Source: Basidiobolus meristosporus CBS 931.73
Taxonomy: Eukaryota > Basidiobolomycota > Basidiobolomycetes > Basidiobolales > Basidiobolaceae
Direction of reading: 5' to 3'
NCBI GenBank assembly: GCA_002104905.1
Contig: MCFE01000007.1
Location: forward strand, 203,060-267,059
Length of the DNA stretch: 64,000 nt
The number at the start of each line of letters is the position of its first letter. Position 1 is the stretch's first letter. The position numbers and the translations under genes are program-made. Shown here in pieces: positions 2,018 through 64,000 of the stretch. Under the pieces are notes generated by a model. It ran no database searches, was not told the DNA's origin, and worked only from the letters and a program-made list of their open reading frames with translations.

Positions 2018-3331
2018 ATGCACCAAGATGATACAAAACCCTCAAATGGAGTCACTCCAATGCGCGTTACTCTGCTTTTTTCTGTAAATGACAGGGTTGG
2101 GGTCCTTGATGAAGCCCTTAAAGCGATCAATGCTTTGAATGTATCACTAACTCGAATTGAATCTCGCCCATGCAAAACTAGTGATTGGGATTACGATTTC
2201 TTTGTGGACTTCTTTACCAAGAATTTGGAGACGGTACAAACCGTAGTACAATCCCTTGAGAAGGTTTCAGGCAATGTCAAAGTGGTTAGTACTGGTGCCT
2301 CGAATTCGGCTGGAAATAGTGTACCCTGGTTCCCAAGAAAGAAGTCAGACCTAGACAGCTTCGCCGATAAAGTTTTGGAAATGGGTGAGGAACTCAGTTC
2401 TGACCATCCTGGTGCCAAAGATCCAGCCTACCGTGCCCGCCGTGCTGAGATTACCAAGATTGCCCGTACTTATCAGCACGGCCAACCATTGCCGAGGATC
2501 GATTATACTGAACAAGAGGTTGCCACTTGGGGAACCGTGTTTCGCAAACTTACAGCAATGTATCCAACTCATGCTTGTAGAGAACATCAATATGTGTTCC
2601 CTCTATTGATTGAAAATTGCGGTTATCGTGAAGATAATATCCCACAGATTGATGACATATCCCGCTTTTTGCGCGAGTGTACAGGTTTTACTCTCCGCCC
2701 AGTGATGGGTCTATTAACATCAAGAGATTTCTTAAACGGCCTAGCTTTTCGTGTATTCCACTCCACACAGTACATCAGACATCACTCCAAACCGCTTTAC
2801 ACTCCTGAGCCAGACTGCTGTCATGAGCTTTTAGGGCACGTACCCCTTTTTGCAAATCAGGACTTCGCAGATTTTTCCCAGGAAATTGGTCTCGCTTCCC
2901 TGGGGGCTAGTGACGAAGATATTGAAAAATTGGCAACAATTTATTGGTTTACAGTCGAATTTGGTCTTTGTCGCCAGGGCGAGGAAGTGAAGGCATTTGG
3001 TGCTGGGTTGTTGTCGTCTTTTGGTGAGTTGGAATACTGTTTGTCCGAAGAACCAACCAAAGTGCCATTTGACCCTTCGAAGGCTGCTGTTCAAAAATAC
3101 CCAATCACTGAATACCAGCCAGTCTACTTTGTTGCTGAAAGCTTCAAGGATGCAAAAGATAAGGTTCGGGAGTTTGCCCGCAGCTTGAATCGCCCATTTG
3201 ATGTTCGTTATAATCCGTATACCGAAACTGTTGAAGTGTTGGATACTCGTGAAAAAGTTGTCCGTTATGCTCACAATATCAAGAGCGATCTTCAGAATTT
3301 GGTTAACGCATTGGAGAAAGTCGAAATATGA
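2018..3331 (+). CDS. PAH: Phenylalanine 4-hydroxylase (aromatic amino acid hydroxylase)
   Basis: 437 residues, no intron. It converts phenylalanine to tyrosine using tetrahydrobiopterin, O2 and a non-haem iron; expected in the cytosol. An N-terminal ACT-type regulatory domain (about residues 16-95, [18 protein letters not shown]) precedes the catalytic domain (about 110-430). The iron ligands are visible: His269 and His274 in CCHELLGH, and Glu314 in TVEFGL, each exactly 16 residues before the human PAH ligands His285, His290 and Glu330. The ACT domain plus full catalytic core favours PAH over tryptophan or tyrosine hydroxylase, although those share the catalytic fold. TATATA lies about 90 bases upstream and AATAAA at 3428-3433. 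Fungal PAH is known from Mortierella and is absent from most Dikarya, which supports an early-diverging host. Confidence 0.95.
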
Positions 3332-4576: not shown

Positions 4577-4798
4577 ATGAAATTGAACATCAGCTTCGTC
4601 CTTGTAATCATTCTCTCTTTAATCGCCATGGCTATGGCACACGAAGGCCACGATCATGGAGCTACCAACACCACTGTACCAAGCAACTCAACTTCTGCTG
4701 CTCCAACCTCAGAAGCTAGCCTTCCATACAACGGGCAATTTATTGCACTTGCTGTGATGTTTTCTCTTGTAACCATGTTCCAACGTTTCTTTGAGTAA
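4577..4798 (+). CDS. Small His-rich secreted/GPI-type peptide (HEGHDHG)
   Basis: 73 residues. Residues 1-21 are a clear signal peptide ending ..AMAMA, and the mature N-terminus is HEGHDHG, a dense His/Asp/Glu cluster that could bind Cu, Ni or Zn. A Ser/Thr/Asn/Pro-rich linker with NTT and NST sequons follows, then a hydrophobic C-terminus (about 52-70) that could be a GPI signal or membrane anchor. The layout resembles plant arabinogalactan peptides. The gene has a good TATA box (4524-4530) and AATAAA (4860-4865). Function unknown; cell surface location is inferred from the signal peptide and C-terminus. Confidence 0.75.
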   Translation: MKLNISFVLVIILSLIAMAMAHEGHDHGATNTTVPSNSTSAAPTSEASLPYNGQFIALAVMFSLVTMFQRFFE

Positions 4799-5709
4799 TG
4801 CCAGTAGCCGATGCTACGGTTAGAATGTGCTTGAATCCTGAGTTGTCAATTTATTTTCCAATAAACAAGTATTGCTTTAACAAATGCAATCTATAGCTCA
4901 AGTACGAATACCTGCAACGAAACTCGCTAATGTGCATCCATCTTTTATTCGGGCTATTTAGCGTTACCAGGATTTAAAGGCTGATTAAATCTTCAAAAAC
5001 AACAATGACTGCTACAATTAATTGGCTGTTTGGCCAGTCCATTGGAGGTAATATATGCCACATAAAGTGCATAACGATACGACAATATTGAGATATAGCA
5101 CTCTCTTTATTGCGAAGTTGATGTTTATTGGCTTGGAATATATTTTGAAAGATATTCACTAATTCTCTAAAATACTCCGAAAAAGAATTTGGCCAAGGAA
5201 TACCCAAGTTTACAGACTAGGATCCAAGTAACGAAGTTAGTGTAAGTTTTTTAAATTTATGAAATATACAACATCAGTAAGGTACCAAGATTTTCGAATT
5301 TTCCAAGGTATTCCAACCAATGCATGTAGCTTCCTGGGACCTGCTTCGAGAACTAACTTGATTGCTTCTACATTCTACGAATGCATAGATGCATTGTTTG
5401 AAATCAGTAAGCTAAACACCAATACCATTCATATCTTCTAGCCCTCCACCAAAGTTTGATGTGTATCAATATAATATCATACGGAAATCACCAATAGTTA
5501 TTTTACTTCTCTCGGATTAAGCTTATAGCTCCAAAGATACAGAATTCCAGGTTATATCTAAGTATAGTCCTAGACGTAGGTCGCAGAAAGAATCAGGAGC
5601 CGAAAACAAATCAGATTATCGAAAGATACAGCCTCTTTGCTGGCCGCTTTATTTTAAATTTTAAGCTTGGCTCCAAATACATATTCATCAAAATGATGTT
5701 CTTTCTTCC
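4799..5709. other. Intergenic region
   Basis: Holds AATAAA at 4860-4865 for the preceding gene. The two genes on either side converge here (+ then -). No further coding signal recognised. Confidence 0.5.
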
Positions 5710-55771: not shown

Positions 55772-55873
55772 AGGGGGGGGGAGACAGTCATCAACAGGTG
55801 AAGTCTTTATTTTAGTTGAAGCAAAGAAGCCAGCACTACTGCTCTAGCTTTGACACTATAGACTGTAGCTTAA
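55772..55873 (-). mobile_element. LINE-A 3'-end fragment
   Basis: About 100 bases matching the 3' terminus of the LINE at 61274-64000: G-run, GAGACAGTCA, AACAGGTGAA, CTTTATTT, then AAGAAGCCAGC.CTACTG. On the + strand it is followed directly by GGTTAGGGTTAGGGG, so its 5' truncation point carries telomere repeats. Confidence 0.85.
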
Positions 55874-55888
55874 GGTTAGGGTTAGGGG
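55874..55888 (+). repeat. Telomere-type repeats (TTAGGG)
   Basis: GGTTAGGGTTAGGGG between the LINE-A fragment and the next element; G-rich strand runs 5'->3' to the right, i.e. the chromosome end is to the right. Confidence 0.9.
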
Positions 55889-56015
55889 TCTAAATTCTAT
55901 TATTGAATCTGATAAAGTATATTAATACCACTTTGACTTGATTCAAGTTGAATAGTGCAAATTGTACAAAGAAACTATATCTATAGTAATGTAAAGGTCA
56001 AAATACTGTCAAAAT
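55889..56015 (-). mobile_element. Short element of family D (5'-truncated)
   Basis: About 110-125 bases, repeated at 56991-57102 with about 85-90% similarity by eye (TTGAATCTGAT.AAGTAT, CTTGATTCAAGTTGAA). It follows TTAGGGG directly. It lacks the hairpin module of the other families but has TTTATT/TTATT near the junction. Coding capacity none. Confidence 0.65.
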
Positions 56016-56020
56016 TTAGG

Positions 56021-56971
56021 GGAGGGAAAGTCACCAAGTTGGTGAAATCTTTATTTGAGTTAAGAACTAATCTAAGTACAAATAAAGAAGCCAATTAAGA
56101 GGCCTATGTTGTAAAAATTTGTAATTCCACCTGAATATTCACCTAACTTAGTCACTTAGATCATTACCCTCAAATCCTAGAGAATACTGACCAAATTCCT
56201 TGTTGGGATTTACTTAGAATATTTTCACCAAAATACCAGGTACCCAGAATATGAAAATTCTCAAAGTTGTCCAAACTGTTGCAATATTCTGAGGAGTATT
56301 GGAAGTGATGTGGAGAACTAGAAGATTTACATGTTATTCACTTGTAGATTTATTGATCAAAAGTATGGTATTTATACTTTTGATAAAGTAGAGGAAACAA
56401 ACGTGTAGAGTTTGTTAAGGAAGGTCCCAAGAATATGTGTGCAAAGTTTGGGGTCTTTTGGACGACTTTGAGAAAAATAATAATCTGGGTACCTGACAAT
56501 TTGGTGAAAATATTCTAAGTAAATCCCGACAAGAAATCTAGTCAGGACAGAATGCTAATCACAGAATAAGATCTATGTGACTAAGTTAGCATGAATATTT
56601 AGGTGACAATTCAATAATTACAACACAAACAGCCCCAAACTTTGCACACATGTTCTTGGGACCTTCCTTAACCTATTCTACGTGTTTGAAATGCCAAGAC
56701 TAGGTAAAAGTATAAATACTACCTTTACATTTGATAAATCATTAAGTGAAAACCACATAATTTACTTGTTCTCCAAATCACTTCCAATATCTCCAAGACT
56801 CTTACAACAGTCTAGAACCTCTCTAATAAGTAATCTAACTTATGTTTTGTTTCATCTCTAATGTTTGTTTCAATAAAGTAAAGCTCATCAGGGGTAAATA
56901 TAAAACTCAAGGGTTTTAGGGGAAGTACAAATTGTAGATGTTTCTGATCAATATAATCTAAGACTGGAACA
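56021..56971 (-). mobile_element. Composite retroelement remnant with inverted repeats
   Basis: Starts with a family C-type 3' terminus (GGAGGGAAAGTCACCAAGTT, GGTGAAATCTTTATTT) after TTTAGGGG. The interior (about 56150-56815) holds two diverged copies of one sequence in opposite orientation, e.g. GGGATTTACTTAGAATATTT against its complement near 56505-56525, and AAGGAAGGTCCCAAGAA against its complement near 56655-56675. The right side carries a protein-like minus frame ending at 56812 (VLDYIDQKHLQFVLPLKPL), whose first residues read through telomere repeats and are not part of it. Several insertions and deletions are likely. Confidence 0.6.
56812..56967 (-). pseudogene. C-terminal ORF fragment of an unidentified element
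   Basis: About 50 codons (VLDYIDQKHLQFVLPLKPLS..DETKHKLDYLLERF-stop) cut at the 5' side by TTAGGG repeats at 56972-56990. Composition is protein-like but it matches neither LINE-A nor LINE-B C-termini by eye. Confidence 0.45.
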
Positions 56972-56990
56972 TTAGGGTTAGGGTTAGGGG
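56972..56990 (+). repeat. Telomere-type repeats (three units)
   Basis: TTAGGGTTAGGGTTAGGGG joins the composite remnant to the second family D copy. Confidence 0.9.
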
Positions 56991-57102
56991 CCTTAATTCT
57001 TTTATTGAATCTGATCAAGTATAGTAATACTATTTCAACTTGATTCAAGTTGAAAAGTGCATATTGTACAAAGAAGATATATCTATAGTAATGTGAAGGT
57101 AA
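56991..57102 (-). mobile_element. Second family D copy
   Basis: Matches 55889-56000 (TTATTGAATCTGATCAAGTA, GATTCAAGTTGAAAAGTGCA). Both copies start at the same point after TTAGGGG, which fixes that point as the element's 3' end, and break at about the same distance. Confidence 0.65.
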
Positions 57103-57144
57103 GGGTTAGGGGATGATCATCACCAAAGGGTTAGGGTTAGGGTT
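57103..57144 (+). repeat. Two telomere tracts with 15-nt filler
   Basis: GGGTTAGGGG, then ATGATCATCACCAAA, then GGGTTAGGGTTAGGGTT. The filler may be an extremely truncated cDNA end or non-templated sequence. Confidence 0.8.
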
Positions 57145-58262
57145 CTAGTGCTTTATTGGGATAATGAGTATTGTAATGGAACATACATGCTAAAGGAGCC
57201 AATACTAGCTGATGTGAAGCCTGTGTAAGCAAGAGGTATAGCTGGGAGTGTTCAGAGTGTGAAAATTATGTCAAAGTGGTTTGAACATGAAAGGGCTAAG
57301 GTAATTTCATAGTAGCTGGTAATCATTTGTGTTAGTGGTACAGATATTTCAAGGCAGAAGCTCAGGTCTAATTGCAGCTATTATGCAATATAATCTTCTG
57401 ACCAAAGCTCTCTGAGTATGAAACTGGAAGAGTGCATCAGTATCCTTGAATTCAAAGCATCTTTCAGCATGAGTATAGTAGAAGGGCTGCTTGCAGATTG
57501 GGCACTTGGAGCCCAGACATATGGTATTCATCCTCCATCTTATAGCCTGGAGGGAATAGAAGGTGCTCTTCAGGTACAATGACACATCAGCACCACTATG
57601 TGTGTGTCTACTGTCTTTTCTGATAAGCCTAATTCTATCCCTTGATGTAGTAACTTGTGATATATTCTGAAGTCTCCTTTGATGCATCGCAACCCAAAGG
57701 GGAATCTGTCCACCAGGAGGTGCACTGCTGTTGGCTAGCACATATTGTTTGTAGCCAGCTGGGCAATGTACTCCTTTTTTGATTAAAGAGTTTGGAGTAG
57801 TGTCTATTCTTCTTCCTACTATGGCATCTACCAAAGCCCTCAATGGGTTGTCAGGGCTAGACTTTGCAAAGTGCTGGCCAAACCTGATACTTAAAGTCTC
57901 AAATCTCTGGGATACTGATTCAATGCCAGTCAAGCTTTGAATTAATCTATGGTACTGTTTAGTATGATACAGAGAAGAACTTACTACCCAGCCTAAGCTT
58001 TCCCTTTGTACTAGTTCAATTCTGTGCAAGATATCAGGGCTGAGAGTGAAGTGCATCATTGGGGCAGAGTACTCCCAGCAAGATCTTAGGAAGGATTTGA
58101 ATAATTGCAGTCTAACAAGGGGGGGCCATCTTGAACCTTTTGCCTGCAAAGTTTTCAGTAGTGCAAGAGCTTTTGATATACATTTGTCAACATAAAGTTG
58201 CCAATCAACACCAGTGCTACATACAGGTAGGCCTAGATAGCTGTAATAACTGGGAGCAGGAA
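57145..58262 (-). mobile_element. LINE-B, 5'-truncated non-LTR retrotransposon
   Basis: 3' end fused to TTAGGG at 57144 (3' region contains CTTTATT); 5' truncation at about 58262 abuts GGGTTAGGGGG. Carries the C-terminal part of an RT protein. Family differs from LINE-A in sequence, 3' terminus and in having a terminal zinc motif. Confidence 0.85.
57349..58260 (-). pseudogene. C-terminal fragment of LINE-B reverse-transcriptase protein
   Basis: About 303 codons of genuine element sequence beginning SYYSYLGLPVCSTG, the region just after RT motif C in LINEs (thumb/YLG box). The first residues of the open frame read through telomere repeat and the next SINE and are not part of the protein. Near the C-terminus CPICKQPFYYTHAERC gives CX2CX7HX3C, the zinc knuckle seen after RT in many non-LTR elements. 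RT catalytic motifs and endonuclease are missing because of the 5' truncation. Confidence 0.85.
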
Positions 58263-58273
58263 GGGTTAGGGGG
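58263..58273 (+). repeat. Telomere junction LINE-B / SINE copy 1
   Basis: GGGTTAGGGGG between the truncated 5' end of LINE-B and the 3' end of the next element. Confidence 0.85.
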
Positions 58274-58665
58274 AGGAAAGTCACCAAGTGGTGAAATCTT
58301 TATTTACTTATGACAAGTATTTAAAGAAGCCAAGTTAATCTGAAGTAATTCCTAGAAAGCTAGGTCTGAGAGATATCTTCCTGGTAAGCCAGGTCTGAGA
58401 GTTGAGAAGCTGAGTGGTACTATATTTCCTAGTTAGCTAGGTCTGAGAGAGGTTTCCTGGAAAGCCAGGCCTGAGAAGTGAGAATCTGAGTATATCTGAG
58501 GTGAGTTGTACTGATTTGCGGTAGCTTGTTTGTGGCCAGAATGGCCAGTAGACTGGGGGAACTGAGGGGTATTTCTGGGCGATCACTGGCCAAATTTACT
58601 AGGCAAATTTGACCAATTAGCATTTCAAGGATTTCAGCCAATCAGAGCCTTTACTTTGCCCGGTG
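58274..58665 (-). mobile_element. SINE copy 1 (5'-truncated)
   Basis: 392 bases of the SINE seen complete at 59818-60337. The 3' terminus has AGGAAAGTCACC, AAGTGGTGAAATC and CTTTATTT. Ends on the right at ACTTTGCCCGGTGG, before the tRNA-like head, then a degenerate TAGGGG. Confidence 0.9.
58351..58469 (-). repeat. Four-hairpin array inside the SINE
   Basis: Four 14-base palindromes: CCTAGAAAGCTAGG (58351-58364), CCTGGTAAGCCAGG (58380-58393), CCTAGTTAGCTAGG (58428-58441), CCTGGAAAGCCAGG (58456-58469), each followed by a TCTGAGAG-like motif. The fourth stem base alternates A-T and G-C with the partner changing in step. The same four are present in copies at 59.8, 60.3 and 60.9 kb. Confidence 0.85.
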
Positions 58666-58794
58666 GTAGGGGAGGGAAAGTCACCAAGGTAGGTGAAATC
58701 TTTATTTGATTTCAGACAAGTCTAACTACAAATAAAGAAGCCAGCTGGGAATAGAAGATTCCCAAAGTAAATACTAAGTTGAATATGAATAAAT

Positions 58795-59523
58795 CTAAGC
58801 TAAAGTTAAGGCAGTATCCCAGAGTACACTGGAGTTCAGGTTCATGGGGGAGTGAAGTAGATAAGCTTGAGAGATATAATAATCTTTGAGGAAGTGGGTA
58901 ACAGCAGGTGAAGGGGAGTTTTTGATAAGTGAAGTGAATCTTGAGAGCAGAGATTCCTCTAAGGAGAAGGTCTTGTAAACTGGAGAATCAGGAAACTCTT
59001 TAAAGGCATGGTCAGTAGGTTCCCAGTAAAGCTGGTCAGAGACATTTTGAGAGAACTCTTTAGCAATACTTTTGTCAAGTACTACCTCCAGAGTGTGATG
59101 GTTGATAAATCTCATGTTGACAATCTTGGATAAGTTGTAACCTTGTTGCTTGAGATACATCCTATGCTCAGATATAGGAATAAACTCCACATTGGCAAAG
59201 TAGCAGACAGCCCAGTCAGTAGCAGGAGGCAAATCAGAAGTGGCAGGAAACTTTCTTTTGGTCTTGGGAGGAGCAGCAGGATGTCTTGAGGGAGCAGGAA
59301 CAGACTTTTTGACAACTTCAGAGTAGGAAGAGTGAGCAGGAGCAGATGATTCTTGGGGAGTCTTGTTGGCAGGAAGGGTTGGCACAGGGACAATAGATTC
59401 TTGCAGATCAGAGAAGGCAGAAAAGAGCTTTTGAACTTGTTTCTTGAGTAGAGCATTTTCAGCTTCAACAAGAGCAGGCCTTTCCTCAAGGAAAGAAATC
59501 TGAAGGGAATGGAGTGAAGGCAT
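58795..59523 (-). CDS. ORF1/Gag-like protein of family C element
   Basis: 242 residues from the first ATG (59523). A short coiled coil or zipper-like stretch near the N-terminus (EERPALVEAENALLKKQVQK) is followed by a Pro/Ser/Lys-rich linker (KSVPAPSRHPAAPPKTKRKF) and a compact domain (DWAVCYFANVEFIPISEHRM, MRFINHHTLEVVLDK) compatible with the RRM-like plus C-terminal layout of LINE ORF1 proteins. Such proteins coat element RNA and act as chaperones. No zinc knuckle is seen. Assignment rests on layout and position in a retroelement, not on a firm family match. Confidence 0.6.
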   Translation of the reverse strand: MPSLHSLQISFLEERPALVEAENALLKKQVQKLFSAFSDLQESIVPVPTLPANKTPQESSAPAHSSYSEVVKKSVPAPSRHPAAPPKTKRKFPATSDLPPATDWAVCYFANVEFIPISEHRMYLKQQGYNLSKIVNMRFINHHTLEVVLDKSIAKEFSQNVSDQLYWEPTDHAFKEFPDSPVYKTFSLEESLLSRFTSLIKNSPSPAVTHFLKDYYISQAYLLHSPMNLNSSVLWDTALTLA

Positions 59524-59565
59524 AAGAAATAAGAAGAAGAGGGTAAGATGGGGTGGGTGGGAGGG

Positions 59566-59790
59566 AAAATTAGCAGGGAGAAGAGAAGGAAGGAGCAAAA
59601 ATTCCAGAAGTCAGAATTTATAGATGGATGGACAAGGGTAGATGGATGGATTATTCCTGGGTTAGGAAAATTAGCAGGGAGAAGAGAAGGAAGGAGCAAA
59701 AATTCCAGAAGTCAGAATTTATAGATGGATGGACAAGGGTAGATGGATGGATTATTCCTGGGTTAGGAAAATTAGCAGGGAGAAGAGAAG
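59566..59790. repeat. 101-bp tandem repeat, about 2.2 copies
   Basis: AAAATTAGCAGGGAGAAGAG recurs at 59566, 59667 and 59768, a 101-base period; the two full units look identical. It forms the 5' region of the family C element on the minus strand. Each unit contains GGGTTAGG (e.g. 59659-59666) and TAGATGGATGG. Confidence 0.9.
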
Positions 59791-59795
59791 GGGAT

Positions 59796-59817
59796 TTAGG
59801 GTTAGGGTTAGGGGGGG
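59796..59817 (+). repeat. Telomere repeats and G-run
   Basis: TTAGGGTTAGGGTTAGGGGGGG: three telomere units passing without gap into the G-run of SINE copy 2. Confidence 0.9.
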
Positions 59818-60337
59818 AGGAAAGTCACCAAGTGGTGAAATCTTTATTTACTTATGACAAGTATCTAAAGAAGCCAAGTTAATCTGAAGTTATTCCTAGA
59901 AAGCTAGGTCTGAGAGATATCTTCCTGGTAAGCCAGGTCTGAGAGTTGAGAAGCTGAGTGGTACTATATTTCCTAGTTAGCTAGGTCTGAGAGAGGTTTT
60001 CCTGGAAAGCCAGGCCTGAGAAGTGAGAATCTGAATATATCTGAGCTAAGTTATACTGGTTTGCGGTAGCTGAATTGTGGCCAGAATGGCCAGTAGACTG
60101 GGGGAGCTGAGATGAATTTCTGGGCGATCACTGGCCAAATTTACTAGGCAAATCTGGCCAATTAGCATTTCAAGGATTTCAGCCAATCAGAGCCTTTACT
60201 TTGCCCAATGGTTGATCAAGCCATCTCCCAATGAGCACACATCAATTTTATTAATCAAATTTTTGCTGGATCCAGGATTTGAACCCACAACCATGGGTAT
60301 GGAAGGGTTAGGGATAACCACAAGGCTAAGTGTTCTT
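59818..60337 (-). mobile_element. SINE copy 2, full length with tRNA-like head
   Basis: 520 bases. On the minus strand the 5' head reads CCAAGAACACTTAGCCTTG and carries an A-box-like TAGCCTTGTGG (60328-60318) and a B-box GGTTCAAATCC (60285-60275), 54 bases end to end as in tRNA genes. The four-hairpin body and the shared LINE-like 3' module follow. Both ends abut TTAGGG. Probable RNA polymerase III transcript mobilised by a LINE in the same array. Confidence 0.85.
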
Positions 60338-60350
60338 GGGTTAGGGGGGG
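60338..60350 (+). repeat. Telomere junction between SINE copies 2 and 3
   Basis: GGGTTAGGGGGGG. Confidence 0.85.
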
Positions 60351-60869
60351 AGGAAAGTCACCAAGTGGTGAAATCTTTATTTACTTATGACAAGTATCTA
60401 AAGAAGCCAAGTTAATCTGAAGTTATTCCTAGAAAGCTAGGTCTGAGAGATATCTTCCTGGTAAGCCAGGTCTGAGAGTTGAGAAGCTGAATGGTACTAT
60501 ATTTCCTAGTTAGCTAGGTCTGAGAGTTGTTTCCTGGAAAGCCAGGCCTGAGAAGTGAGAATCAGAATATATCTGAGCTAAGTTATACTGGTTTGCGGTA
60601 GCTGAATTGTGGCCGGAATGGCCAGTAGACTGGGGGAACTGAGAGGAATTTCTGGGTGATCACTGGCCAAATTTACTAGGCAAATCTGGCCAATTAGCAT
60701 TTCAAGGATTTCAGCCAATCAGATCCTTTACTTTGCCTGATGGTTGATCAAGCCATCTCCCAATGAGCACACATCAATTTATTAATCAAATTTTGCTGGA
60801 TCCAGGATTTGAACCCACAACCATGGGTATGGAAGGGTTAGGGATAACCACAAGGCTAAGTGTTCTTGG
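60351..60869 (-). mobile_element. SINE copy 3, full length with tRNA-like head
   Basis: 519 bases, nearly identical to copy 2, with B-box at 60815-60805 and A-box at 60858-60848. The GGGTTAGGG inside the head (between A and B boxes) is also present, so it belongs to the master sequence and is not a fresh junction. Confidence 0.85.
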
Positions 60870-60882
60870 TTAGGGGGGGGGG
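60870..60882 (+). repeat. Telomere junction between SINE copies 3 and 4
   Basis: A single TTAGGG extended by a run of ten G in total. Confidence 0.8.
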
Positions 60883-61258
60883 AGGAAAGTCACCAAGTGG
60901 TGAAATCTTTACTTACTTATGACAAGTATCTAAAGAAGCCAAGTTAATCTGAAGTAATTCCTAGAAAGCTAGGTCCGAGAGATATCTTCCTGGTAAGCCA
61001 GGTCTGAGAGGTGAGAAGCTGAGTGGTACTATATTTCCTAGTTAGCTAGGTCTGAGAGAGGTTTCCTGGAAAGCCAGCCCTGAGAAGTGAGAATCTGAAT
61101 ATATCTGAGCTAAGTTATACTGGTTTGCAGTAGCTGAATTGTGGCCGGAATGGCCAGTAGACTGGGGGAACTGAGATGAATTTCTGGGCGATCACTGGCC
61201 AAATTTACTAGGCAAATCTGGCCAATTAGCATTTCAAGGATTTCAGCCAATCAGAGCC
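60883..61258 (-). mobile_element. SINE copy 4 (5'-truncated)
   Basis: 376 bases, same 3' terminus and hairpins. It breaks off at CAGCCAATCAGAGCC and passes straight into TTAGGGTTAGGGGGG, a clean example of a truncated cDNA end capped by telomere repeat. Confidence 0.9.
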
Positions 61259-61273
61259 TTAGGGTTAGGGGGG
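61259..61273 (+). repeat. Telomere junction SINE copy 4 / LINE-A
   Basis: TTAGGGTTAGGGGGG. Confidence 0.9.
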
Positions 61274-61327
61274 AGACAGTCACCAACAGGTGAAATCTTT
61301 ATTTCAGTTGAAACAAAGAAGCCAGCG

Positions 61328-63960
61328 CTACTGTTGTAGCTTTGATACAAGAGTGTGTAGCTGAGGGGAATTTGTAGGTAAGTTAATAAGAAGTGATGAT
61401 AGTTCTTCAGTGCTCAAGACACTGTTCAGTGGGAAGGGGGGTAGCAAGAGAGGTAAGAATGACTTGTGAACAACATTAATGAGGGGAATGTGATAAGGAT
61501 TGATATTCATCATAAAGGGAGTGTGCTGCTGCAGATATTGCTGCCAAAGGTCTGTCAAGTACTTCAGGTAGGCCAGCTTGGGTTTTTCTGACTGCAGAAT
61601 ATAGTGAGCAAACTTCTTGACTTCAGGATCTCCGAGTATAGTTCTCCAGCAGGAGCCAGGTGTTGTGTGGTGTGTTCTCTTCCAGGCCTTAATCAGTGGG
61701 TTGTTGCAGTTGTGAAGTCTGAGGTATAATCTGGTTCTAAGGTAGAGAAGTCTGATCTTATAGGGCATAAACCCAAAAGCACCAAGAATAGCATGTCTGT
61801 AGGGGCATTCAGGCAAATGAGGCACCAAGGAGGTAATGCACCATACTGCAAACTTGTCAAGCTTAGTGCAGTCTCTAGAAGTAAGAGAGAGAAGTGGTAA
61901 GCCAAATTCCAGGACAGGGAAGACAAACTGCTTGAGTAGAAGGAGGCAGCTGGGAGCTGAAGTTGTAGGAGGAGTAACAGCCAGTAGCTTGTGGAGTGCC
62001 TGTCTTGCCAGGATAATTCTCTTCTTCAGGTGTGCTCCAGAGTCTAGTCCAGTAGGAAGGAAAGGAAAGCCAAGATATGTAGCAGAAACCTGAGCAGGTA
62101 GAGTGGAGTTCTCCAAGTTGATGGGAGAGCCCAAAGGTACTGTCTTTGCAATGGAAAGCTGGAGATTATTCTTCTGCAGATACTGGTGGATGGTCTGGGA
62201 GTCTTGTTGCACACTGGAGGAGGATATTCTGATGTCATCAGCAAAGAGAGTAACCAGGCAGTCAGCTGAGAGTCTTGGGAAATCATTCAGGAAGATGGCA
62301 AACAGTATAGGACCAAGCACAGAGCCTTGAACCACTCCATTAGGAACTGAGAACACAGCTGATTGCTCACTTGGGTGCAGAATTCTTGCTTGTGGATCCA
62401 GAAACAGAGACCTGACAAGGAGGGTGAGAGAGGTACTGGAGAAGCATTGCAACTTGGACCAAAGCAGATTTCTGTCAACTGAATCAAAGGCCTTAGTAAT
62501 ATCAAACAGAACAGAGGGATACTTGCACTGGAGAGAGTGATCTTGGCTAAGTATGACTGCATATTCCAAGGAGAGGCCAGGAACAAAGCCAAACTGTGCA
62601 GGATGAAACTTGAGAGAGTCAGAGTAGAGCTCCTGAGCAAGCAGAAGCTCAAACACCTTTCTGCAGGTGGGCAGCAGAGATATTGGCCTGTAGGAGCTAG
62701 GATCCAGGTGCTTTCCTTTACCCTTGTACAGTGGCAGAACATTTGCAAAGGACCATTCCTCAGGAGTAGAAAGCTGGGCTGAGCATTGCTGAAACAGTGG
62801 AAGCAGAAGTGCAGACATGGCCTTGGTACTAGTCTTCAGAAGCTCATAGGAGATTGTGTCCACACCTGGAGCAGTAGAGTTGGGAAGCCTCTTGAGCACA
62901 TTATGGATTCTCCTTTGATCAAGTGCAAGTGGGATGGGCAGAGTCTTGAAGTCAGGATGAAAGCCAGGAGTTGAGTACTGCTTTGTAGAGAAGAAGATGT
63001 TAGCCAGCTGTTCTGTTGAAGGTAACTTCCTGGAAGAGGGCCTCATTGCCCTGTAGAGTCTTGATACTGTTCTTGTTATAGAGTTGGAAGATTGCAGAGG
63101 CAAGGAACTCATAATATGATCCCAGAGCTGAGTATGCAGAGTGTGGTGAATTGCCTTGGAGTGGTGTATTGCTGTCAGGAGGAGGTTCTCTGTTTTTGGG
63201 TTAGGGAAGCTCAGGTAGCTTTGTTGCAGGGCTGAAACAATGGATTCCCATTTTCTTGAGGCAACCGCAGTAGTCTTGCATGGCAGTGAGAGGGAGGCAG
63301 ACACCAGAATCAGATGCTTCACAAAGAGCCAGGCAAAGTTGAGATCATCTGGCAGAGAAAGTAGCAAACTGGCAAGCTTCAAGTAGTTCCCAAAGTCTTT
63401 CTTCTGATTCTTGGTAGCTTTGTGGGTGAGCACAGTAAGTTTTGGCAGCTTCCTCTTCACAACTGGTTGCATAGAAAGGGACCAGGCTGGGTGGTCAGAG
63501 GCTCTCAAGGATCCTAGCTCAGCTCCAGAGAATTGCTTAACTTCATTCACAAAGTAGAGGGCAGCAGCAGAAGGGCAGATCCAGTCAACACATCTTTTCT
63601 CAGATTGAGCACCTAGTGCTAGCAGGTGGCTTTCTCTCAGGAAGTTCAGTAGGAATGTAGACCTTGGCTTCATTCTTGCAGTCAGAGTAGTCTTGTTCTC
63701 AGGATGGGGAATGTTGAGATCTCCAAGCAAGATAACAGGTGTTGATATAGATTGTTGGTATTGCTGAACCTTCTGGCATATAACTTGCACTTCCTGAAGG
63801 GCTAGACTTGGAGGCAGATAGCAGAGCACCAGACTGATAGTTGGCAACTGGAGAGCAGCACAGTAAGGGGAGTAAAGAGGAACACAGAGCTGAGGAGTAT
63901 TGATGGTAGAAGAGATGAAGCAGATAGAGGAGGTATTCTTTGTTCTAGGAGTAGAAAAGC
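61328..63960 (-). CDS. LINE-A ORF2: endonuclease (C-terminal half) and reverse transcriptase
   Basis: Open for 884 codons from 63982, with no N-terminal ATG; it is missing the first half of an apurinic-type endonuclease. Visible: endonuclease GDLN (about 87-90) and SDH (about 162-164); RT with FDITKAFDSVDRNLLW (motif A), GVVQGSVLGPILFAIFLNDF (motif B) and FADD (580-583, motif C), then YLGFPFLPTG and the post-RT region. No C-terminal zinc knuckle is seen, unlike LINE-B. No frameshift or stop interrupts the RT, so the copy is young. It would make first-strand cDNA from a 3' DNA end; use of telomere ends is inferred from the junctions. Confidence 0.9.
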
Positions 63961-63999
63961 AATATAGATTAGTCAAAAGCAATATAGATTAGTCAAAAG
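63960..63999. repeat. 20-bp tandem repeat at LINE-A 5' edge
   Basis: GCAATATAGATTAGTCAAAA occurs twice in a row up to the window end; the second copy brings a stop into the ORF2 frame (63991-63989). It may be a 5'-end repeat or the start of a longer array beyond the window. Confidence 0.7.
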
Positions 64000-64000
64000 T

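Follow-up and report, generated by a model that had tools for sequence, protein, structure and literature searches.

Outward-facing arrays of non-LTR retroelements joined by short telomeric tracts at contig ends of Basidiobolus meristosporus

How do retroelements come to be stacked head to tail at the end of a chromosome, with telomeric repeats between them? This question is raised by the right end of a 64,000-nucleotide stretch of the genome of Basidiobolus meristosporus CBS 931.73, hereafter the window, which corresponds to bases 203060-267059 of contig C979 (MCFE01000007.1). The assembly searched comprises 89.0 Mb in 1311 contigs. Twelve retroelement copies lie head to tail and in a single orientation at 55776-64000 of the window, in the order A, C, G, C, F, E, B, D, B, B, B, A (letters denote families). 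On the plus strand, copies with the common tail described below begin with their 3' end and stop at a variable point towards their 5' end, and TTAGGG, TAGGG, or a G-run precedes the 3' end. TTAGGG-derived sequence was present at every junction but the first, where the 3'-terminal 95 nt of a 5'-truncated long interspersed nuclear element, LINE A (55776-55870), stands on host sequence with a G-run (55774-55781). The RNA strand of this copy is the minus strand and its cDNA strand is the plus strand; all of the other copies likewise lie on the minus strand, and the TTAGGG tracts between them are on the plus strand. Because the contig ends inside a LINE at position 64000, the window gives no view of the chromosome tip. 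The opposite (left) end of contig C979 also bears an array (L031).

Arrays at contig ends

Families A, B, D, G, and F have a common RNA tail, TTGGCTTCTTT...AAATAAAGATTTCACC-loop-GGTGA...CCCC. The set consists of two LINEs (A and G), element D, which has only the first open reading frame (ORF1) of a LINE, the short interspersed nuclear element SINE B, and family F; families C and E carry tails other than the common one. The tail pattern GTCACCAAN{1,4}GGTGAAATCTTTATT had 1388 forward and 122 reverse matches in the genome. The reversed control had none against these 1510, so chance can be excluded. TAGGG was found 3 to 14 nt upstream in 88 of the first 97 tails listed.

The position and orientation of individual families were then tallied. 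These searches scored part of the candidates, and distances rest on contig sizes interpolated from the lexicographic size-ordered numbering (0 violations among 19 known contigs; interpolation error, median 268 bp and maximum 4.4 kb over 20 contigs). Element D pointed to the nearer contig end in 145 of 146 matches, which came from 142 of 564 candidates scored. Its median distance from the outward end was 2.3 kb, with 140 of 146 matches within 10 kb and 145 of 146 within 20 kb. On contigs longer than 40 kb, the outward count was 119 of 119. LINE A ORF2 was outward in 48 of 49 cases (41 of 41 on contigs of >40 kb; 49 of 1337 candidates scored), SINE B in 50 of 50 (40 of 40; best 50 of 88 matches), and LINE G in 36 of 40 (29 of 29; 40 of 41 matches, excluding a partial one). 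The listed tails were outward in 90 of 100 cases (37 of 37; first 100 places listed). The counterexamples sit on contigs of 11 to 20 kb, for which proximity to one end carries little meaning. A control repeat taken from 56110-56805 of the window faced the nearer end in 24 of 40 cases (14 of 29 on contigs of >40 kb; best 40 of 163 matches), with 20 on the plus and 20 on the minus strand. An end bias arising as an artefact of repeats that break the assembly was ruled out, since the elements are one-sided and the control repeat is not.

Contig C424 (312,558 bp) opens with CCCTAA and closes with TTAGGG, and an outward-pointing array lies at either end; the same disposition of arrays is seen on C979. 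Every 64th contig by size was sampled for its right end (20 chosen, 18 ends read). Three of the 18 end in TTAGGG, 4 carry elements, all of them outward, and 13 have neither. An earlier note, made from the sequence of the window alone, had described at least eleven copies in one orientation, TTAGGG or a G-run at their 3' junctions, variable 5' truncation, and a multifamily array with its own SINE, and had predicted a uniform outward orientation at other ends. All of these descriptions are borne out by the present counts. As a separate observation, three consecutive TTAGGG units occur 8002 times forward and 103 times in reverse in the whole assembly, so that the telomere is mostly on the right of contigs; this looks like an assembly convention.

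Telomeric tracts beneath the copies and the priming of insertion

For the reading of junctions, loci were turned so that elements read on the plus strand, and matches of <75% identity and weaker overlapping ones were dropped. No locus read had mixed strands (126 of 126 copies). The 3' start was present in 102 of the 126 copies; 8 were cut by the edge of the locus and 16 began internally. These internal starts comprise the D 5' repeat, an internal deletion in L020, an A-D fusion in L039, copies that are split or diverged, and, in L030 and L034, pieces whose inner side was not assigned. Elements that are interrupted and then resume were seen in two real cases (LINE G in the window and D in L034), both due to inserts of other families, and no copy of the array families interrupted another element in the loci read. 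Two more such matches, in L017, were discounted as short diverged pieces.

A full-length SINE precedes 16 of the 103 tail junctions, and the D repeat precedes 7; 79 of the 80 others have distinct proximal sequence. This bears on the possibility that the main source of array growth is recombination or break-induced replication between ends and not retrotransposition. Such a process is known for MoTeR elements of Magnaporthe, in the part of that literature consulted, and a duplicated SINE-G segment in L031 fits it. The distinct junctions, the differing truncation points, and the many intact, near-identical ORFs all oppose it, and we consider it scarcely credible as the main route.

The tracts at these junctions are short. 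The number of TAGGG units was 0 in 9 junctions, 1 in 65, 2 in 20, 3 in 4, 4 in 3, 5 in 1, and 6 in 1, and the tract between copies had a median of 11 nt and a maximum of 37 nt. For the 90 junctions of A, B, D, and G the median was the same (11 nt), and 8 of the 90 had no full TAGGG. Terminal TTAGGG arrays, in contrast, measured 122 to 263 nt (median, 218 nt) at 19 ends, most of which were picked for carrying SINE B or D and so are not a random sample; two other ends examined had no terminal array. Beneath the outermost copy, readable at 13 of the 19 ends, the tract was 7 to 37 nt (median, 10 nt), which differs from the terminal arrays with a Mann-Whitney P value of 2e-6. If insertion were uniform along a 218-nt array, the probability that all 13 tracts would be 37 nt or shorter is about 1e-10. 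Since each copy stands on about one repeat and not on about 218 nt, a normal telomere tip is unlikely to have been the primer.

Two other routes to arrays of this kind were weighed against the tract lengths. In target-primed reverse transcription (TPRT) like that of SART and TRAS elements, an apurinic/apyrimidinic endonuclease (APE) would nick the G-strand at the innermost telomeric repeats, and the outer repeats would stay beyond the element. TPRT would also yield a single orientation and uninterrupted element bodies, SART1 and TRAS1 are each reported in the available excerpts to be unidirectional in TTAGG, and the endonuclease domain encoded here retains most of its catalytic residues. However, random nicking in telomeres of about 218 nt predicts long inner tracts, whereas 13 of 13 under outermost copies are at most 37 nt; 8 of 90 junctions have no full TAGGG, the first copy in the window is on host sequence with a G-run only, and SART1 is described in the same excerpts as requiring at least three repeats. 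We regard this route as unlikely. The tract lengths rule out random TPRT in telomeres of normal length, as they do priming at the tip of such a telomere, unless the tracts are lost at once. Such loss is the second route: the elements would enter ordinary telomeres, and the long interstitial tracts would then rapidly break and be lost, with one or two repeats surviving. A comparable instability is reported for MoTeR, where, in the passages seen, tracts of at least three repeats break and the stable ones have at most two. Against it, short tracts are already found under the outermost copies. With outward growth these copies would be the newest, and a gradual decay of long tracts therefore does not account for them. 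In addition, MoTeR arrays are reported to keep tracts of up to 18 repeats, whereas the longest among the 103 junctions has 6. We therefore consider tract loss quite improbable. Short tracts could also be produced by an assembly that shortens repeats, though this would require the terminal arrays to have been spared.

The explanation that we consider probable is that a guild of non-long-terminal-repeat (non-LTR) retroelements adds itself to chromosome ends, primed on nearly bare ends that telomerase then re-caps. The element ribonucleoprotein would meet a chromosome end with about one TTAGGG, whether eroded, uncapped, or broken. The RNA tail is predicted to have a terminal hairpin followed by CCCC(UAACCC), and the CCC or CCCUAA at the RNA 3' end could pair with the 3'-OH of the G-strand. 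Reverse transcription would proceed outward and fall off at any point, the new end would be re-seeded by telomerase with about 200 nt of TTAGGG, and subsequent loss of that telomere would expose the end for the next copy. The single repeat may belong to the old telomere or may be templated by the RNA end. The variable G-runs are consistent with slippage on the C-run; G-run length is also prone to long-read consensus error. A candidate telomerase gene lies on C880, where the telomerase RNA-binding domain has two exon-like matches that each exceed the cut-off. At the right end of C205 (L075), 231 nt of TTAGGG directly cap a broken Ty3-like pol gene (recognized by eye), an arrangement that looks like chromosome healing without a retroelement. 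Taken with the telomerase-domain matches, this cap indicates that broken ends seem to arise and to be healed.

Several observations weigh against end-primed addition. TAGGG is absent upstream of 9 of the 97 tails. One array is mid-contig (C558:86600-100500; loci L035 and L038), about 98 kb from the nearer end; it holds D, A, F, B, and an LTR-like repeat and was counted as outward in the orientation tallies, and it may be a relic, a misassembly, or the product of a fusion. LINE A retains most endonuclease residues (N, GDxN, and SDH), with E changed to D at one metal-binding position, and its enzyme may therefore still be able to nick. Long tracts might also disappear soon after a copy inserts, as they reportedly do in MoTeR. 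In L031 (read reversed), a SINE-G segment with the same odd junction occurs twice, at 963-1727 and 4631-5338, and the A-D fusion in L039 is without a 3' end; recombination or deletion therefore also acts. Microhomology at 5' truncations was not significant (P = 0.065), and the host flank is unique in the assembly, with no second allele for comparison. The confinement to termini anticipated by the earlier note thus agrees with the end location genome-wide, apart from the C558 array. Its proposal that the G-rich chromosome end primes outward reverse transcription, with telomere repeats added again, accords with orientation, chaining, and truncation; a telomere tip of normal length is the part that does not fit, given about one repeat under the copies.

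More tentatively, the three tiers of the guild (LINE, ORF1-only element, and SINE) might act as first aid, extending nearly telomereless ends, buffering host sequence, and giving telomerase a new end, a role that we think possible but doubtful. If it were true, such a guild would represent a surviving halfway stage between telomeres maintained by telomerase and those of the Drosophila type. The number of repeats beneath a copy records, in readable form, the condition of the end when that copy was inserted, and the rescue of failing telomeres by retroelements is therefore testable by sequence.

Families, shared tail, and coding capacity

LINE A has an ORF1 followed by an ORF2 with an APE-type endonuclease and a reverse transcriptase (RT). 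The copy cut by the contig end (61268-64000) follows two TTAGGG units (61259-61270) and includes ORF2 at 61328-63988, with part of the endonuclease and the RT. The RT matched Pfam RVT_1 at 2e-25, and the endonuclease part matched Exo_endo_phos_2 at 3e-4, under the curated cut-off. An RT with an N-terminal APE-like endonuclease in ORF2 places LINE A among the APE-type LINEs. ORF2 is a 922-amino-acid (aa) frame, stop-free in 46 of 49 listed copies. The endonuclease was aligned with that of 11 other LINE proteins, 10 of which align well in this part. The metal-binding column has Glu in these 10, whereas LINE A has Asp there, as do its relatives P0001 and P0003; the N, GDxN, and SDH motifs, columns that we take to hold the catalytic residues, are kept. 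ORF2 relatives at 48 to 80% identity (P0001-P0005) occur in other collections, and the LINE A clade is therefore wider than the Basidiobolus genome studied.

ORF1 of LINE A is a 523-codon open frame in L024, in which the first Met is codon 22 and a CPNC..CKC motif was seen by eye. Four 348-aa frames match just its first ~341 residues (C427:126709, C780:194464, C204:6931, and C609:84391) and are perhaps a second ORF1-only variant. Two telomere repeats adjoin the ORF1 start at the same place in three copies (L021:1327, L024:2131, and L061:75), as if part of the 5' untranslated region. LINE G has the RT motifs AFDSVDR, GSVLGP, and YADD (L027, by eye) and is 69% identical to LINE A over 320 nt.

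Element D is about 1.1 kb long and has a single 242-aa ORF and a 101-bp repeat, variable in number, at its 5' end. In the window it occupies 58672-59795, with the ORF at 58795-59523 and the tandem repeat at 59564-59765. The ORF is homologous to the C-terminal part of LINE A ORF1 (36% over 163 aa; 7e-22) and was stop-free in 108 of 146 listed matches. Its pN/pS ratio (nonsynonymous to synonymous differences) was 0.24 among 12 intact copies, a value uncorrected for transition bias and from copies picked for open frames. In the database, a single relative of the D protein reached an E value of ≤0.001: Basidiobolus ranarum K7432_011661 (50% over 163 aa), which is nearer to D than to LINE A ORF1 (28%). 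A host gene of the window, the phenylalanine hydroxylase gene at 2018-3331, likewise has mostly early-diverging fungi among its closest named relatives; in the first 120 of 4443 matches, the window itself was followed by a record labelled as turtle (53% identity), Calcarisporiella (75%), and Glomus (73%).

SINE B is 520 bp long. Two full-length copies (59819-60339 and 60352-60871) and two 5'-truncated copies (58275-58667 and 60884-61260) lie in the window, and a tract of three TTAGGG units (59796-59813) separates D from the first full-length copy. No frame of 100 aa was found within SINE B on the RNA strand. As to a tRNA origin, ARAGORN found no genes in the window and Rfam gave no match at an E value of ≤1 in 60200-60890; motifs that resemble the consensus A and B boxes were seen by eye. 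SINE B also has an internal GGGTTAGGG. D, an ORF1-only element, thus has 3' sequence in common with an RT-coding LINE, a division of labour like that of HeT-A, and the common tail probably gives D and B access to the LINE enzyme.

Related systems and remaining features of the array

The RTs of HeT-A, TART, and TAHRE belong to the Jockey clade. SART1 and TRAS1 of Bombyx are of the APE type with an ORF1/ORF2 layout, and the RTs of SART and TRAS belong to the R1 clade. Coprina and Athena are Penelope-like elements that lack an endonuclease, are telomere associated in fungi and rotifers, and are joined to telomeric repeats; their RT family differs from that of the Basidiobolus LINEs.

In organisation, the Basidiobolus arrays resemble those of HeT-A, TART, and TAHRE, being tandem non-LTR arrays at ends with an ORF1-only partner. 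According to the excerpts consulted, HeT-A has only ORF1 and lies beside RT-coding elements in the telomere arrays of Drosophila, which has no telomerase. Drosophila also lacks TTAGGG, whereas the Basidiobolus arrays come with a telomerase domain, TTAGGG arrays, and a SINE, so that a HeT-A-like organisation is found beside telomerase in a distant lineage. SART1 and TRAS1 are similar in being LINEs in telomeric repeats with a fixed direction; SART1, as excerpted, differs in having a poly(A) tail and needing at least three telomeric repeats, whereas the Basidiobolus tail ends in CCCC and leaves about one repeat. MoTeR1 and MoTeR2 and the FoTeRs of Fusarium are likewise non-LTR elements of fungi that sit in telomeric repeats and are accompanied by interstitial TTAGGG, and FoTeRs have upstream tandem repeats, as does D at its 5' end. 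The parts of their accounts that we consulted place them in a clade with a restriction-endonuclease-like domain. LINE A does not group there on its domains, since Pfam gave an APE-like match and no other endonuclease match. FoTeR 3' tracts are given there as mostly three to seven repeats, whereas the Basidiobolus tracts have mostly one. The APE-type domain, the ORF1-only partner, and the SINE were not met in those parts, and the endonuclease type is accordingly one that they do not describe for fungal telomeric elements. No report of this Basidiobolus system was found among the listed titles and abstract openings of the open-licence literature.

The remaining parts of the window array are small or fragmentary. 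Two TTAGGG units (55876-55887) follow the first LINE A copy, and family C copy 1 (55886-56005), with its different 3' tail and a hand-set start, overlaps them. The LINE G 3' piece (56022-56970) is split into 56022-56106 and 56809-56970 by a 0.7-kb inverted-repeat insert (56107-56808); L027 has the insert-free form. Three TTAGGG units (56972-56989) and family C copy 2 (56988-57100) come next, followed by an extremely 5'-truncated family F copy of only about 19 to 22 nt (57112-57130). Beyond two further units (57131-57142) lies family E (57143-58262), an ORF2-like fragment with an open frame at 57349-58299 that has no Pfam match and is weakly similar to LINE A ORF2 (33% over 78 aa; 7e-5).

Further repeats were seen in other arrays. 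One beginning TGTAGGTGTTATAGTAAGGGC stands right after TTAGGG in L018, L020, L023, L030, and L032, and the TGTAGGTGTTATAGTAAGGGC repeat is perhaps an additional end-added family with its own tail. Another, beginning TGTTGTATCCAAGAG, comes after truncated elements in L011, L039, L040, and C558; the TGTTGTATCCAAGAG sequence is perhaps an LTR element inserting into arrays. Parts of the 56107-56808 insert recur genome-wide on both strands, and its part 164-517 recurs at a spacing of about 2.96 kb in C1295, C535, and C750, resembling a tandem array.

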